Both the position numbers and the translations under genes were made by a program. 39,706 nt of DNA from positions 1-39,706 of the IMG/VR virus record IMGVR_UViG_3300045902_000325, one strand, 5' to 3'. Below the pieces are notes generated by a model that was not told the origin of the DNA, searched no databases, and saw nothing but the letters and a program-made list of their open reading frames with translations. Of this stretch, positions 9,219 to 28,522 are shown piece after piece (positions within the stretch are counted from its first letter, which is position 1; each line of letters starts with the position of its first letter). The DNA comes from a virus.

Positions 9219-9788
9219 TCATATAATTTCATCAACAATACCCCAGTATAAAGCCTCTTTAGGTGTCATGTACCAATCAATCTTCTTTACATTTACTTCC
9301 TTGAGTTTTGCCTTTGTTAGTTTTGTTTTTTGCAGTATAATGCTTTCAAGTAATTTTTGAACCCTTTTTGTTTCTGCAACCTTTTCCTGCATATCTGCCA
9401 AGGTTCCAAATGACCAACTGCTAACTTGATGGTATAGTGGTGTCGAATGTTTATATGCAAATCTTCTATGTCCTGCTATTAATATCATAAACCCAGCGCT
9501 CATTGCTGCTCCTGTTGAGTACGTGTATATCGGAGTCTTAGAATTGTCCATCACAGAAAGTAGACCAAGTATCTGATAAACACTTCCTCCATAAGAATCT
9601 ATGTATATGTTTATTGGCTTAGGTGTATATGTAAAGTCGTATACAGCATATAACTTTCTCAACAAATCATCACTCTCGTTTATATTAATAATCTCTTCTA
9701 CTAATTTTTTTATTGAATCTTGATCTACCTGTTCGTAGAAGTAGAGATTTCTTGCCCTAGGCAATGGCAGACTGGTTATGTCAGACAT
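9219..9788 (-). CDS. clpP: ClpP-like serine protease
   Basis: 189 residues, near the length of ClpP (about 200). The triad is complete: Ser97 in TGAAMSAGFMI, His120 in LYHQVSSW, and Asp171 in KIDWYMTPKEALYWGIVDEI, the latter matching the ClpP consensus DRFLSPxEAxEYGLVD. The oxyanion loop IYIDSYGGSV matches the family's IYINSPGGSV. In bacteria ClpP forms a two-ring barrel fed by ClpA/ClpX; phage versions are often prohead proteases or head-maturation enzymes. No scaffold or capsid gene is adjacent, and a ClpS-like domain is encoded 5.6 kb away. The start overlaps the end of the deacetylase gene by 13 bases. Confidence 0.85.
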   Translation of the reverse strand: MSDITSLPLPRARNLYFYEQVDQDSIKKLVEEIININESDDLLRKLYAVYDFTYTPKPINIYIDSYGGSVYQILGLLSVMDNSKTPIYTYSTGAAMSAGFMILIAGHRRFAYKHSTPLYHQVSSWSFGTLADMQEKVAETKRVQKLLESIILQKTKLTKAKLKEVNVKKIDWYMTPKEALYWGIVDEII

Positions 9789-23845: not shown

Positions 23846-24222
23846 ATTATATAACACACCAAGTATTTGGCTCTGTATTCCCTGTTTGTGCTTTACTAAT
23901 GCGTTCCCTTGTTTTCTTCAAAGGAATATGTTCATTATCCTCACCGTTCCTGTGATTATAGAGATCTTTTAAGTTTATTAGTTCAAAAGTAACTACTCTA
24001 TTTTCATGGTCAGAAACTTCTTTACGATTAGGGTATTCTGCTATTACCTATTTAGTAAAGTTTTTTCTTCCATATTTTTTAATAGCACTTTTTATCGCAT
24101 TTCCAGAACCCGTGTACCCATCCTCTAACTTATTGGTTGAGTGAATGCCATAGTAGTACTTACCGTTTACAAGTTTAGTTATCTTGTAGAAGTAATTATG
24201 AGTTTTTTCTTTTTTAATCATA
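23846..24222 (-). pseudogene. GIY-YIG homing endonuclease interrupted by an amber codon
   Basis: From ATG overlapping the end of the 147-residue gene the frame reads MIKKEKTHNYFYKITKLVNG then KYYYGIHSTNKLEDGYTGSG, the GIY-YIG catalytic start (Y, Y-G-I-H, and the later Arg/Lys helix AIKSAIKKYGRKNF). One TAG interrupts at codon 58 (FTK-stop-VIAEYPNRKE), after which the frame continues for about 66 codons with the family's EVSDHENRVV and RERISKAQTG. The C terminus stops early after GNTEPNTWCV. Probably a decaying mobile endonuclease of the SegE/Hef-like kind. Confidence 0.65.
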
Positions 24223-24699: not shown

Positions 24700-25280
24700 C
24701 AAGTTACAGTTGTGATTTGAGAATCTCTATTCGAGAATCAGTTCTCTTAATGCAGTTTATCACCGCATCTTCTTTATTGGTATGCAAATTTTTTCTTTAA
24801 AGTCTTTGGAACCTATCAACATGTTGTAAATTGTACTAAAATCCTTGCACAGGTATTGCACAATTGGCACCCGCAGACGATGATGGACACTGTAATGTGA
24901 AATCCCGCAAGCTGGGCTTCAGTATCGCTGGAACGCAGTCGTTCCGACGATCCGCTCTTGATCGTCTCTGGTATTCCCTTTAAAGGTGTCAGGGCTTACT
25001 AAATATCCTCTTTCAGAGTACTTTTGGGCGACGACCATTAATACTATATATAATGTCCCGCTTTAGGGCGACGGAAGCCCCTCAACCTCCTTGTAGGAGG
25101 TCTGTTTAAGAGGAATTTTCCAACCATCCTATGTTGGAGGGATGGGAGCGAAATTTCATCCGTCTCGACACTGGCTATGATACCACTAAGTAGGAATTCT
25201 ACCATCTTCCATTCTTCTGTCTGGACGTTAGCACGTCCAGAGACAAATTGATAAATTTCATCTTATATAGGTATTTATAT
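24700..25280 (-). ncRNA. Candidate structured non-coding RNA region
   Basis: No coding frame fits in this 600-base gap, yet it carries many strong hairpins: GGAACG/CGTTCC (about 24929), GACGATC/GATCGTC (about 24946), ACCTCC/AGGAGGT (about 25085), TCCAAC/GTTGGA (about 25119) and a 9-bp TCTGGACGT/ACGTCCAGA (about 25217). GGGCGACG occurs twice. G+C is higher than in the phage genes around it. It lies downstream of the heptad-repeat gene on the same strand. I could not match it to group I or II introns, RNase P, tmRNA or HEARO/omega RNA. Strand is assumed. Confidence 0.45.
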
Positions 25281-25281
25281 A

Positions 25282-25299
25282 CCCCGCTACCCAGCGGGG
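25282..25299 (-). terminator. Hairpin after the heptad-repeat gene
   Basis: CCCCGCT (25282-25288) and AGCGGGG (25293-25299) form a 7-bp stem, loop of four, 13 bases after the stop of the repeat gene. AT-rich sequence follows on the minus strand. May also be the first stem of the structured region beyond. Confidence 0.5.
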
Positions 25300-25311: not shown

Positions 25312-26097
25312 TTAAAGGCCAGTCACATCACCGGATAGGCAGGTCACGTCACCGGAGATGTTGGTCACGTTCCCTCGAATGTAGGATACGTCGCCACAGA
25401 TGTTGGTCACGTCACCGGAGATGTTGGTCACGTTCCCTCGAATGTAGGATACGTCGCCACAGATGTTGGTCACGCCACCGGAGATGTTGGTCACGTTCCC
25501 TCGAATGTAGGATACGTCGCCACAGATGTTGGTCACGCCACCGGAGATGTTGGTTACGTCTCCGAATAGGCCGGAGGCATCTCCGTAAATGCCTGATACG
25601 TCACCGGAGATGTTGGTCACGTCGCCGATAAGGCAGGACACGTTTCCGCGAATGTTGGTCACGTCGCCGATAAGGCAGGTAACTGCACCTCGAATGTCGG
25701 TAACGTCGCCGTGAATGTTGGTCACGTCACCATAAATCCCTGATACGTATCCGATAAGGCCGGTCACGTCTCCGTGAATGTTGGTCACGTCTCCGTGAAT
25801 GTTGGTCACGTCGCCGGTAATAAAGCTAACGTCGCCTAGAAGGCCGTCAACGCTCCCGAAAATGCCGGTAACGTCTCTGTAAATTTGGGACACGTTTCCG
25901 CTTATACCTGTCACGTCTCCGCGAATACAGGATACGTTTCCCCGAATGCCGGTCACTTCGCCACAGATGTTGGTCACGCCACCTGAGATGTTGGTTACGT
26001 CTCCGAATAGGCCGGAGGCATCTCCGTAAATACCAGCGGCATTTCCCCAAATGCCGGACAGATCGCCGACTAAGTTTGAAGATTGATATAGTTCCAT
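25312..26097 (-). CDS. Protein of 36 perfect heptapeptide repeats (GDVTNIx-type beta-solenoid candidate)
   Basis: 261 residues: a nine-residue head, then exactly 36 uninterrupted seven-residue repeats of the form xGDVTxI (x = Y, S, H, R, C, I, F; Gly in nearly every second place, Val at 4 and Ile/Leu at 7). Three-repeat blocks (SGGVTNI CGDVSYI RGNVTNI) recur three times near the C terminus, and heptads 3-6 and 24-27 are near copies. No signal peptide. The period of seven differs from pentapeptide and hexapeptide solenoids, but the regular Gly and aliphatic spacing predicts a beta-helix with one face of Val and one of Ile/Leu. It has its own promoter and higher G+C. Function unknown. Confidence 0.75.
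   Translation of the reverse strand: MELYQSSNLVGDLSGIWGNAAGIYGDASGLFGDVTNISGGVTNICGEVTGIRGNVSCIRGDVTGISGNVSQIYRDVTGIFGSVDGLLGDVSFITGDVTNIHGDVTNIHGDVTGLIGYVSGIYGDVTNIHGDVTDIRGAVTCLIGDVTNIRGNVSCLIGDVTNISGDVSGIYGDASGLFGDVTNISGGVTNICGDVSYIRGNVTNISGGVTNICGDVSYIRGNVTNISGDVTNICGDVSYIRGNVTNISGDVTCLSGDVTGL
25318..26070 (-). repeat. 21-bp tandem repeat tract inside the heptad gene
   Basis: The heptads are encoded by 21-bp units such as GTCACGTC...ATGTTG on the plus strand. A 63-bp unit (three heptads) is present about three times in 25350-25550 with few changes. Such a tract can expand or shrink by recombination, which would change the length of the protein in whole turns. Confidence 0.75.
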
Positions 26098-26157
26098 TTT
26101 ATTAGGTATTTATTTACATCGATCCCAAGCGAGCGGTTGATGAACACAATTATGGTA

Positions 26158-26185
26158 TAAAGATACAACTCCACTTAAAAGTCAA
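26158..26185 (-). promoter_or_regulatory. Bacteroidota-type promoter of the heptad-repeat gene
   Basis: On the minus strand TTGAC is followed after about 17-20 bases by TATCTTTA, one base from the TAnnTTTG -7 consensus. The gene starts about 60 bases on, with an A-rich leader and no Shine-Dalgarno. Confidence 0.55.
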
Positions 26186-26227
26186 GGAATATTTTATTTA
26201 TTGACAATTTATTAACAACAAAACATA

Positions 26228-26331
26228 TCTATTTCCGATAATTCTTTTTTGAGTGTGTCAAAGTCGTTTTTTACGCCTAAGTAAAATGATATGAGTTTTG
26301 AATTAATGTCATTTATAATTGCTCTTTTAGG
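26228..26331 (-). repeat. 104-bp exact copy of an internal dam-methylase segment
   Basis: Bases 26228-26331 are identical to 27698-27801, which encode the PKRAIINDINSKLISFYLG stretch of the methylase. The copy is out of context: it abuts the broken end of the restriction gene and no start or methylase sequence surrounds it. It is the scar of a recombination or template-switch event inside this restriction-modification locus. Confidence 0.9.
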
Positions 26332-27026
26332 TATCAGCCATATTACCCTGTGCCGTTAACATTGGATTTCCAAAGTCGTCAAATTTTAAATTGGCTTTAA
26401 TTTCTCCACCGTCCAACATTGTCATTGCTCGCCAAGTATTCCACTCCAATATAAGAGGCGTATCGTAAAGTGAATTATCAAGTATTTGGTCAAACGTTCT
26501 GGAAATATCTTCAAACAGCCGGTAGTCTTTGATTGCTGCAACTTGTTCTGTTTATTTGCTCTTTTCGATTTTCTATTTGGTCTGCAAATAAGTTTTTTAG
26601 TTCTTGTAAGGTTGCAGTTGCAGAAAATTCAAGTTGCGGAAACTCTGCTGAATTTGCTGTTGGTTTGTGAAATGGAGAAGGAACTTGAAATTTGAGTAAC
26701 TGTCTTAAAAATATTTCGTCTTTTCTTCTTGAGTTTACAAGCTCTTCACCTGCTGGTGTAAGTTGAATTGTTGGGGAAAGAATTACAAAACCAAGTGCTT
26801 TTGGTGCTCTGTTTATTCTGTCTCTTGCACTAAATGCAGGGTCATTTGCACCTTCGCCATTGAAAAAGTTTTCTTCTCTCAATAGCTCCATAAAAGCCCT
26901 TTGAGTTTCGTTATTCCATCTTTGTCCTGCGAAATGGGCGTGCAAAAGCCCAATTTCAGGAATCATCTTTGCAGGTGTCCGTGGGGAAGTGGTTACAAAA
27001 ATTACTTTACTGTCAATTCTAGCCAT
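26332..27026 (-). pseudogene. AlwI-family restriction endonuclease, frameshifted and truncated
   Basis: The start MARIDSKVIFVTTSPRTPAK, PEIGLLHAHFAGQRWNNETQ and DPAFSARDRINRAPKALGFV match the AlwI (GGATC) type II enzyme family as I recall it. After NRKEQIN near 26550 the frame shifts; in the next frame the protein continues (EQVAAIKDYRLFEDIS; LILEWNTWRAMTMLDGG; GNPMLTAQGNMAD). It then stops at the junction with the 104-bp methylase copy, just where the catalytic PD-(D/E)xK core would begin. So the nuclease is lost. The start overlaps the methylase stop. Confidence 0.65.
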
Positions 27027-27933
27027 ATGAAACAGATTCTTCTTCTAGTATTAATTTTGGTTCTCTTTTTAATGCCTCGTTGCCATAGTTAGAAATGAGA
27101 ATGTGGCTCGCTTCGGACTTAAATCGGTTTCTAATATTTACCGCATAGGATTTGCCATATTCATCTACAATGTAGTCGCCATATAATTTTTCTGTTAGAG
27201 GTGTTCTACCAATAACCATAAGTGCTTTGCACTTTAGTTTTTTATATTGGTTAGCTAATTCAATATGATTTTTTTCATTGAATCCGTCTTTGTGTTCAGC
27301 ATTGCCATAATCAGAAAAAACGCAATCATATGGTGGGTCTAAAAACATAAAGTCGTCTTTAGTTGCCATTTGGAAAATCTCGGAATAGTCAAGATTATAA
27401 ATCTCTGTATTAGCAAGTAATTTGCTGTGAGAATTTGTTACCAATGAAGTATTTAGGTTTGCATATCGTCCATAAGGCACATTAAATTCTCCTTTTGCAT
27501 TGTAGCGTATCATTCCCGAATATGCAGTCTTATTTATGAAGAAATAAAGCAAAGCATCAGAGTATTTTTTTTCTGTCAGTTCATTGAACATATCTCTGAT
27601 TTGATAATAGAGGAGTTCGTTTTCATCTTCAACTCGCTTGTCAGGTGTTTTACTTTTTAATTCTTCAAAGTTTCTGCGGTTAATGGCGTAAACCCGCTCT
27701 ATTTCCGATAATTCTTTTTTGAGTGTGTCAAAGTCGTTTTTTACGCCTAAGTAAAATGATATGAGTTTTGAATTAATGTCATTTATAATTGCTCTTTTAG
27801 GCTCTAAATGAAAGAACAACGCACCACCACCAAAAAACGGTTCAATATATCGTCCGCTATATTCGGGAATGTGTTTAATCAAATGAGGTATTTCCTTTGA
27901 TTTTCCTCCTCTGTATTTTACAAGTGGTTTCAT
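27019..27933 (-). CDS. dam: Dam-type DNA adenine-N6 methyltransferase (D12 class)
   Basis: 304 residues, normal length and apparently intact. KYRGGKSKEIPHLIKH at the N terminus, the SAM motif IEPFFGGGALFF, INDIN after AII, and the catalytic DPPY in MFLDPPYDCVFSDYG. It would methylate adenine, and by location protect the AlwI-like site GGATC or part of it. Its nuclease partner is broken, so it is now an orphan. The ATG overlaps the stop of an upstream methylase fragment. TAG stop overlaps the nuclease start. Confidence 0.85.
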   Translation of the reverse strand: MKPLVKYRGGKSKEIPHLIKHIPEYSGRYIEPFFGGGALFFHLEPKRAIINDINSKLISFYLGVKNDFDTLKKELSEIERVYAINRRNFEELKSKTPDKRVEDENELLYYQIRDMFNELTEKKYSDALLYFFINKTAYSGMIRYNAKGEFNVPYGRYANLNTSLVTNSHSKLLANTEIYNLDYSEIFQMATKDDFMFLDPPYDCVFSDYGNAEHKDGFNEKNHIELANQYKKLKCKALMVIGRTPLTEKLYGDYIVDEYGKSYAVNIRNRFKSEASHILISNYGNEALKREPKLILEEESVSYG

Positions 27934-28245: not shown

Positions 28246-28522
28246 GTGAACTACCCATTTGCTAAAGACAAATGGGCTTCGGGTTTCACAGACTTGCGCT
28301 TCTTTACAAAAGTCTTATTTAAGTCTCCACCCGTGTAATCGCCAGTTCCTGACGATATTATTTTTAATCCTTCTTTGAAAATATTCTTTGCGGCATTAAG
28401 GTCACGGTCTAATATGTGACCATTCTTGCAAGTCCTGATACTATTCGTGAGTATATCCTCAATCAGGGTTAGTCGCTTACATCCCACAGGCTAAAGACCT
28501 GTGGGTTTTACGCTCCGTCATA
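28246..28522 (-). mobile_element. Deletion derivative of an IS200/IS605-type tnpB element (copy C)
   Basis: Both ends are present: right-end hairpin GTGAACTACCCATTTG... and left-end hairpin with CCCACAGG/CCTGTGGG and TTTTACGCTCC. Between them an ORF runs across the joint: MGCKRLTLIEDILTNSIRTC then KNGHILDRDLNAAKNIFKEG and KKRKSVKPEA. Nearly the same as copy A, including the AATAGTATCAGG joint. The flank ATTTTATATGAC at the left side equals that at the 73-118 end. Confidence 0.8.

Follow-up and report, generated by a model that had tools for sequence, protein, structure and literature searches.

The window, by which we mean the whole 39,706-nucleotide stretch of viral DNA analysed here, encodes on its minus strand a protein made of a short head and 36 uninterrupted seven-residue repeats. 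Judging from sequence, this protein is part of a family common to phages and some bacteria and archaea, uncatalogued and sometimes capped at its ends. The window protein is predicted to be a strictly periodic beta-solenoid, at middling model confidence. As an overall explanation we tentatively propose, at slightly less than an even chance, a rod-like solenoid that was horizontally acquired, binds a host or defence protein inside the cell and evolves by block duplication. The heptad-repeat family, its spread over cells and phages and its huge expansion in one contig appear to be undescribed in the literature and databases searched.

The preliminary description had counted exactly 36 tandem heptapeptides behind a nine-residue head, ending at a repeat boundary. 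Translation bears this out: the 261 residues equal 9 + 36 × 7 with remainder 0, no gap or extra residue interrupts the register and the last residue closes a unit (Table 1). The strand on which the gene lies is a refinement of that earlier observation. Glycine occupies unit position 1 in 35 of 36 heptads (YRDVTGI being the lone exception), while position 3 is V/A/L and position 6 is I/L throughout. The longest run of strict units is 26, compared with a maximum of 2 over 5000 residue shuffles and with 1 in the window's other ORFs.

Table 1. Coordinates of the repeat gene and of features in and around it (window positions).
Feature	Position	Strand	Remarks
Heptad-repeat gene, 261 aa	25312..26097	-	head of 9 residues + 36 heptads, consensus x-G-D-V-T-[N/G]-I
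N-terminal cap signature	26014..26097	-	MELYQSSNL VGDLSGI WGNAAGI + start of YGDASGL; resembles 'NLxGDxxxIWG[DN]AxGIxGDA' of relatives
Tandem duplication, 63 bp (three heptads)	25342..25559	-	3.5 copies, 98% match, recent
147-bp (seven-heptad) periodicity	25448..26031	-	units 3-5 vs 24-26: DNA nearly identical
ATAAATACC motif	26105..26113 and 25270-25278	-	shortly before the start codon; second occurrence downstream of the repeat gene
Perfect 7-bp inverted repeat	25282..25299		CCCCGCT-ACCC-AGCGGGG; beyond the stop codon, read directly
Decayed restriction-modification locus	26140-27933		upstream of the repeat gene; D12 adenine methyltransferase (PF02086), then broken AlwI-type endonuclease

Is this a selected protein, or merely an open DNA repeat? 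Among the 36 units, synonymous variation is high and non-synonymous variation low at Gly1 (pS 0.73, pN 0.035), Val3 (pS 0.63, pN 0.11) and Ile6 (pS 0.72, pN 0.16), which shows the protein to be under selection. At position 7 (x) and position 5, pN reaches 0.64 and 0.53, respectively, that is, near-free change. The 63-bp and 147-bp repeats show that the array was enlarged through in-frame block duplication. It is conceivable that we are looking at a selfish or decaying repeat gene whose product does not fold; the recent 63-bp duplications and the gene remnants in the surrounding region would suit such a history. Yet synonymous divergence is strong while Gly1, Val3 and Ile6 stay fixed, and not one frameshift occurs across the 36 units, so we judge this highly improbable.

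Relatives were sought with a degenerate DNA pattern covering three heptads, which returned 49 stretches in viral contigs and 21 in cellular genomes. Two of the cellular matches (L059, L063) have the appearance of ordinary coiled coils and were set aside, leaving about 19, from Patescibacteria, Heimdallarchaeota (an Asgard archaeon MAG) and others. Heptad counts range from 3 to 74. Across 1670 family heptads, core positions 1, 3 and 6 hold G in 98.5%, V/A/I in 95% and I/L in 98%; unit spacing is exactly 7 in 1657 cases, and short insertions are few and lie for the most part between positions 4 and 6. Many phage members have in common 'MKK.L...YYYKDG..I.GVH..I' at the N-terminus and 'G[DN][VIL]D[DE]CEITDEER..GI.I.DLI' at the C-terminus, the latter cap being absent from the window protein. 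Several Patescibacteria possess a single chromosomal copy of about 190-200 aa, in most cases a conserved 'LHKI' followed by 20 heptads, which in some of them adjoins housekeeping genes; the gene is nevertheless a rarity among Patescibacteria, carriers amounting to 2 of 287 sampled genomes, the starting genome being one of the two. As a lone query against viral contigs the window protein found no relative, and the phage collection searched held no near relatives of this phage region. Pfam, NCBIfam and PHROGs contain no family describing the heptad protein, giving only repeat and coiled-coil cross-matches, and the literature search found no relevant description of the motif, the two matches to its letter string being due to chance.

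The nine residues before the first unit had been described as a head. Their length stands, but they are no plain leader: together with the first units they form a family signature. The protein start, NLVGDLSGIWGNAAGIYGDASGL, matches the subgroup pattern 'NLTGDxxxIWGDAKGIxGDASNI', and "NLxGDxxxIWG[DN]A" is also found at the starts of relatives. A cap-only pattern returned 5 stretches on 3 contigs out of 2.9 million viral contigs. The four that were read (L011, L026, L039, L048) all encode repeat proteins, L100 being the L048 contig again, and the head is therefore a mark of the family.

The most extensive use of the repeat is in DYJL01000023.1 (L097-L099), a 48.7-kb contig of 28% GC that is filed as a Nitrospira MAG and looks like a phage from its gene content. 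Its minus-strand ORFs (1 to 21.6 kb) look, from their sequence and order (read, not searched), like genes for terminase, portal, capsid and lysis proteins. On the plus strand, opposite to these apparent structural genes, about 16 nearly consecutive heptad genes of 133-552 residues extend from 23.5 to 42.5 kb and occupy about 40% of the contig's length.

What fold could such a sequence adopt? Structure prediction, one of the checks proposed in the preliminary description, gave periodic strands and not disorder once the family was supplied. From the single sequence AlphaFold2 reached a pLDDT of 43, an unreliable model without helix that was set aside as too poor. With a 62-row family alignment over residues 3-177, mean pLDDT was 73 and pTM 0.59, and five-residue strands alternated with two-residue turns, unbroken over 175 residues and free of helix, although an alignment made of repeats may through its depth inflate periodicity. 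Stacked short-repeat strands, the hallmark of beta-solenoids, are thus found here by prediction. Foldseek alone retrieved nothing from the PDB at E <= 0.001. VIA-align, applied to Foldseek candidates, placed the entire model on beta-helices, best on Ag43 (Z 14.9, rmsd 3.2 over 174 residues), followed by TibA (14.2) and the P22 tailspike (about 11.3); for repeats such Z scores may reflect a common arrangement alone, and they show no kinship. The 175 model residues matched a span of about 386 residues in P22. Over that span the tailspike makes about 13 turns, and 12-13 turns for 175 residues would therefore mean about 14 residues, most likely two heptads, per turn. A 21-residue coil of three heptads, prompted by the 63-bp duplications, was rejected, since the family has no period of three and the aligned spans favour two heptads per turn. 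Across the family, heptads show no lag-2 or lag-3 periodicity; the sequences have no period of coil length, which tells against the proposed two-heptad turn. The position of the turn is in conflict: in the AlphaFold2 model it is at Gly-Asp, but the hydrophobic pattern and the insertions seen in the family point to Thr-Asn, suggesting the latter as the true turn.

Among the window's genes are those for an endolysin and for a head protease resembling ClpP. The protease (9219-9788) is the nearest recognised structural gene, about 15 kb from the repeat gene, which stands alone between gene remnants. Upstream, in the restriction-modification locus, the methyltransferase looks intact, the AlwI-type restriction gene, matched by pieces of PF09491, is split over two frames, and the methyltransferase gene is partly repeated in a short second copy. 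Elsewhere in the region, 28251-28487 holds what is left of the C-terminus of a TnpB-like transposon protein (with a Cas12f1-like TNB domain scoring below the Pfam cut-off), and a short ORF at 24048-24221 reads like the start of a GIY-YIG endonuclease, with no Pfam match. ATAAATACC occurs 3 times in the window against 0.58 expected, and on either flank of the repeat gene it comes with a similar short leader before an ATG. The inverted repeat behind the stop codon lacks a T-run and is hence no canonical terminator, nor did the terminator scan list it. Short complementary runs (e.g. CCTCC/GGAGG) in the intergenic stretch 25000-25250 may belong to a structured RNA, for which Rfam gave no match.

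GC3 of the repeat gene is 0.63, as compared to 0.38 +/- 0.056 in 32 other window genes, and the gene looks imported for this reason, though the unit's own codon constraints may contribute to the difference. The best reading is a horizontally acquired accessory gene, probably not a virion gene. Among phage relatives, named neighbours are a helicase, an Erf annealing protein and a primosomal-type protein, with exonuclease and repressor families also in the tally, and in MW202691 an SSB gene lies about 1.6 kb upstream of the heptad gene. Most phage neighbours are without known function, so this argument draws on few loci; as far as gene content goes, the neighbourhood favours an accessory role inside the cell rather than a part of the virion.

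How might the protein work? Each heptad would contribute one short strand and a tight turn, some two heptads completing a 14-residue turn of stacked parallel strands, to give a thin rod with Gly1, Val3 and Ile/Leu6 in its packed core. The residues at 5 and 7, and to some extent those at 2, would face solvent, where they vary almost freely. The most probable role is that of a rigid intracellular scaffold whose changeable face would bind and block a host or defence protein (our guess at the target), and duplication of heptad blocks would alter both length and surface. Of the functions first suggested, a scaffold would be compatible with this picture, as would a binding surface. Counter-defence or host take-over is the role that we favour, though at well below an even chance, and the single chromosomal genes beside housekeeping genes do not suggest counter-defence in Patescibacteria.

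Several other readings have to be weighed against such a rod. With V and I at 3-4 spacing, the heptads could form the a/d core of a trimeric coiled coil similar to those of phage tail needles and fibritin, and the window protein does have the hydrophobic a/d pattern. Sequence matches in Pfam, PHROGs and the PDB are indeed mostly coiled coils: the profile search proposed at the outset was run with the family profile against the PDB, where its notable matches were of this kind, e.g. the tail needle gp26 (4lin, E 2.4e-12), and the strongest PHROGs match was the minor head protein phrog_19577 (E 8e-22). The 3-4 spacing itself, however, accounts for the PDB matches, and the match to phrog_19577 is likely one of periodicity as well; the one Bacillus phage 'minor head protein' that was read, from Goe3, is a Lys/Ala/Asp-rich coiled coil with 4.5% Gly and unlike the window protein. 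Gly makes up 20% here versus 3% in true coiled coils and is present in 98.5% of family units, Ala is at 2%, mean helix propensity is 0.625 kcal/mol versus 0.44-0.46 in the matched coiled coils, and AlphaFold2 gives strands alone with or without an alignment. A coiled coil is thus very improbable.

A virion fibre, spike or adhesin, the first function to have been suggested, would be an extracellular rod whose length is set by repeat number. Its length variation (3 to 74 heptads) and its top structural look-alikes, adhesin passengers and tailspikes, would agree with this. Reading of the 261 residues from the head MELYQSSNL onwards, however, reveals no obvious signal peptide, outer-membrane anchor or receptor-binding tip, the named neighbours are replication, recombination or regulatory genes, the 48.7-kb contig carries its array on the strand opposite the apparent structural genes, and Patescibacteria have chromosomal copies. 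Gene context thus disfavours the suggestion, as does the absence of any evident signal peptide or anchor, and we consider it quite unlikely. The same list had included a DNA mimic, that is, an acidic solenoid occupying a DNA-binding enzyme in the way of pentapeptide MfpA and Qnr. For the window protein this is in line with a net charge of -18, a pI of 4.05, Asp at unit position 2 in 22/36 heptads and the adjoining broken restriction-modification locus. The family, however, averages just -0.34 charges per heptad and includes neutral and basic members; with pI values from about 4 to 8.6, DNA mimicry is not general, and we regard it as unlikely.

Returning to the intracellular rod, the broadest version of our proposal is that intracellular heptapeptide solenoids constitute a new family of modular, length-variable phage binders of host or defence proteins, block-duplicated and filling ~40% of one contig; in this general form we consider it somewhat unlikely. 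If the surface does bind host proteins, the family would represent natural, evolvable repeat binders, the counterpart of designed repeat-protein binders, and the giant array of the phage-like contig makes the idea directly testable. The uncatalogued seven-residue unit would also join the short list of minimal beta-solenoids, with fixed core and free surface cleanly separated.

How does the predicted solenoid compare with known ones? Most repeats of 6-10 residues fold into beta-solenoids, and for a PPE pentapeptide solenoid two units per coil have been predicted (PMC9663297). Bacterial beta-solenoids with short units likewise include the pentapeptide-repeat proteins (MfpA, Qnr, AlbG), some of which act as DNA mimics (PMC8145042), but their unit is five residues as opposed to seven throughout here, and the window protein has no Pfam match to PF00805. 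The passenger beta-helices of Ag43 and TibA align best with our model, yet they are right-handed, three-sheeted, longer in the coil and part of autotransporters. Similar in layout are the YadA/BpaC adhesin heads, whose 14-residue (double-heptad) beta-roll layers have a Gly in each half, conserved at layer positions 1 and 8, and which also form long arrays grown by block duplication (PMC9543794). They differ as left-handed beta-rolls of secreted, anchored trimeric adhesins; the structural matches of our model are right-handed helices, which does not fix its own handedness. The YadA-type head PF05658 is absent among the Pfam families listed to E 10, filters discarding most weak matches. Grass ice-binding proteins are beta-rolls with coils of 14-15 residues (PMC7383708). 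In contrast to the Val/Ile core of the heptad family, the ice-recrystallisation-inhibition domain of Lolium perenne (3ULT) has Asn/His ladders; heptad relatives are not specific to the cold (one is from a mine contig), and the grass proteins are not among the 60 PDB chains listed for the family profile, although the fold could still be shared. The preliminary description had called a pure heptapeptide solenoid little described. Family-alignment structure prediction and position-specific constraint favour such a solenoid, and its repeat family is indeed uncatalogued in Pfam, NCBIfam and PHROGs; as a fold it is not new, since double-heptad beta-rolls in YadA/BpaC heads (PMC9543794) and the 14-15 residue coils of the grass proteins (PMC7383708) already represent its class.
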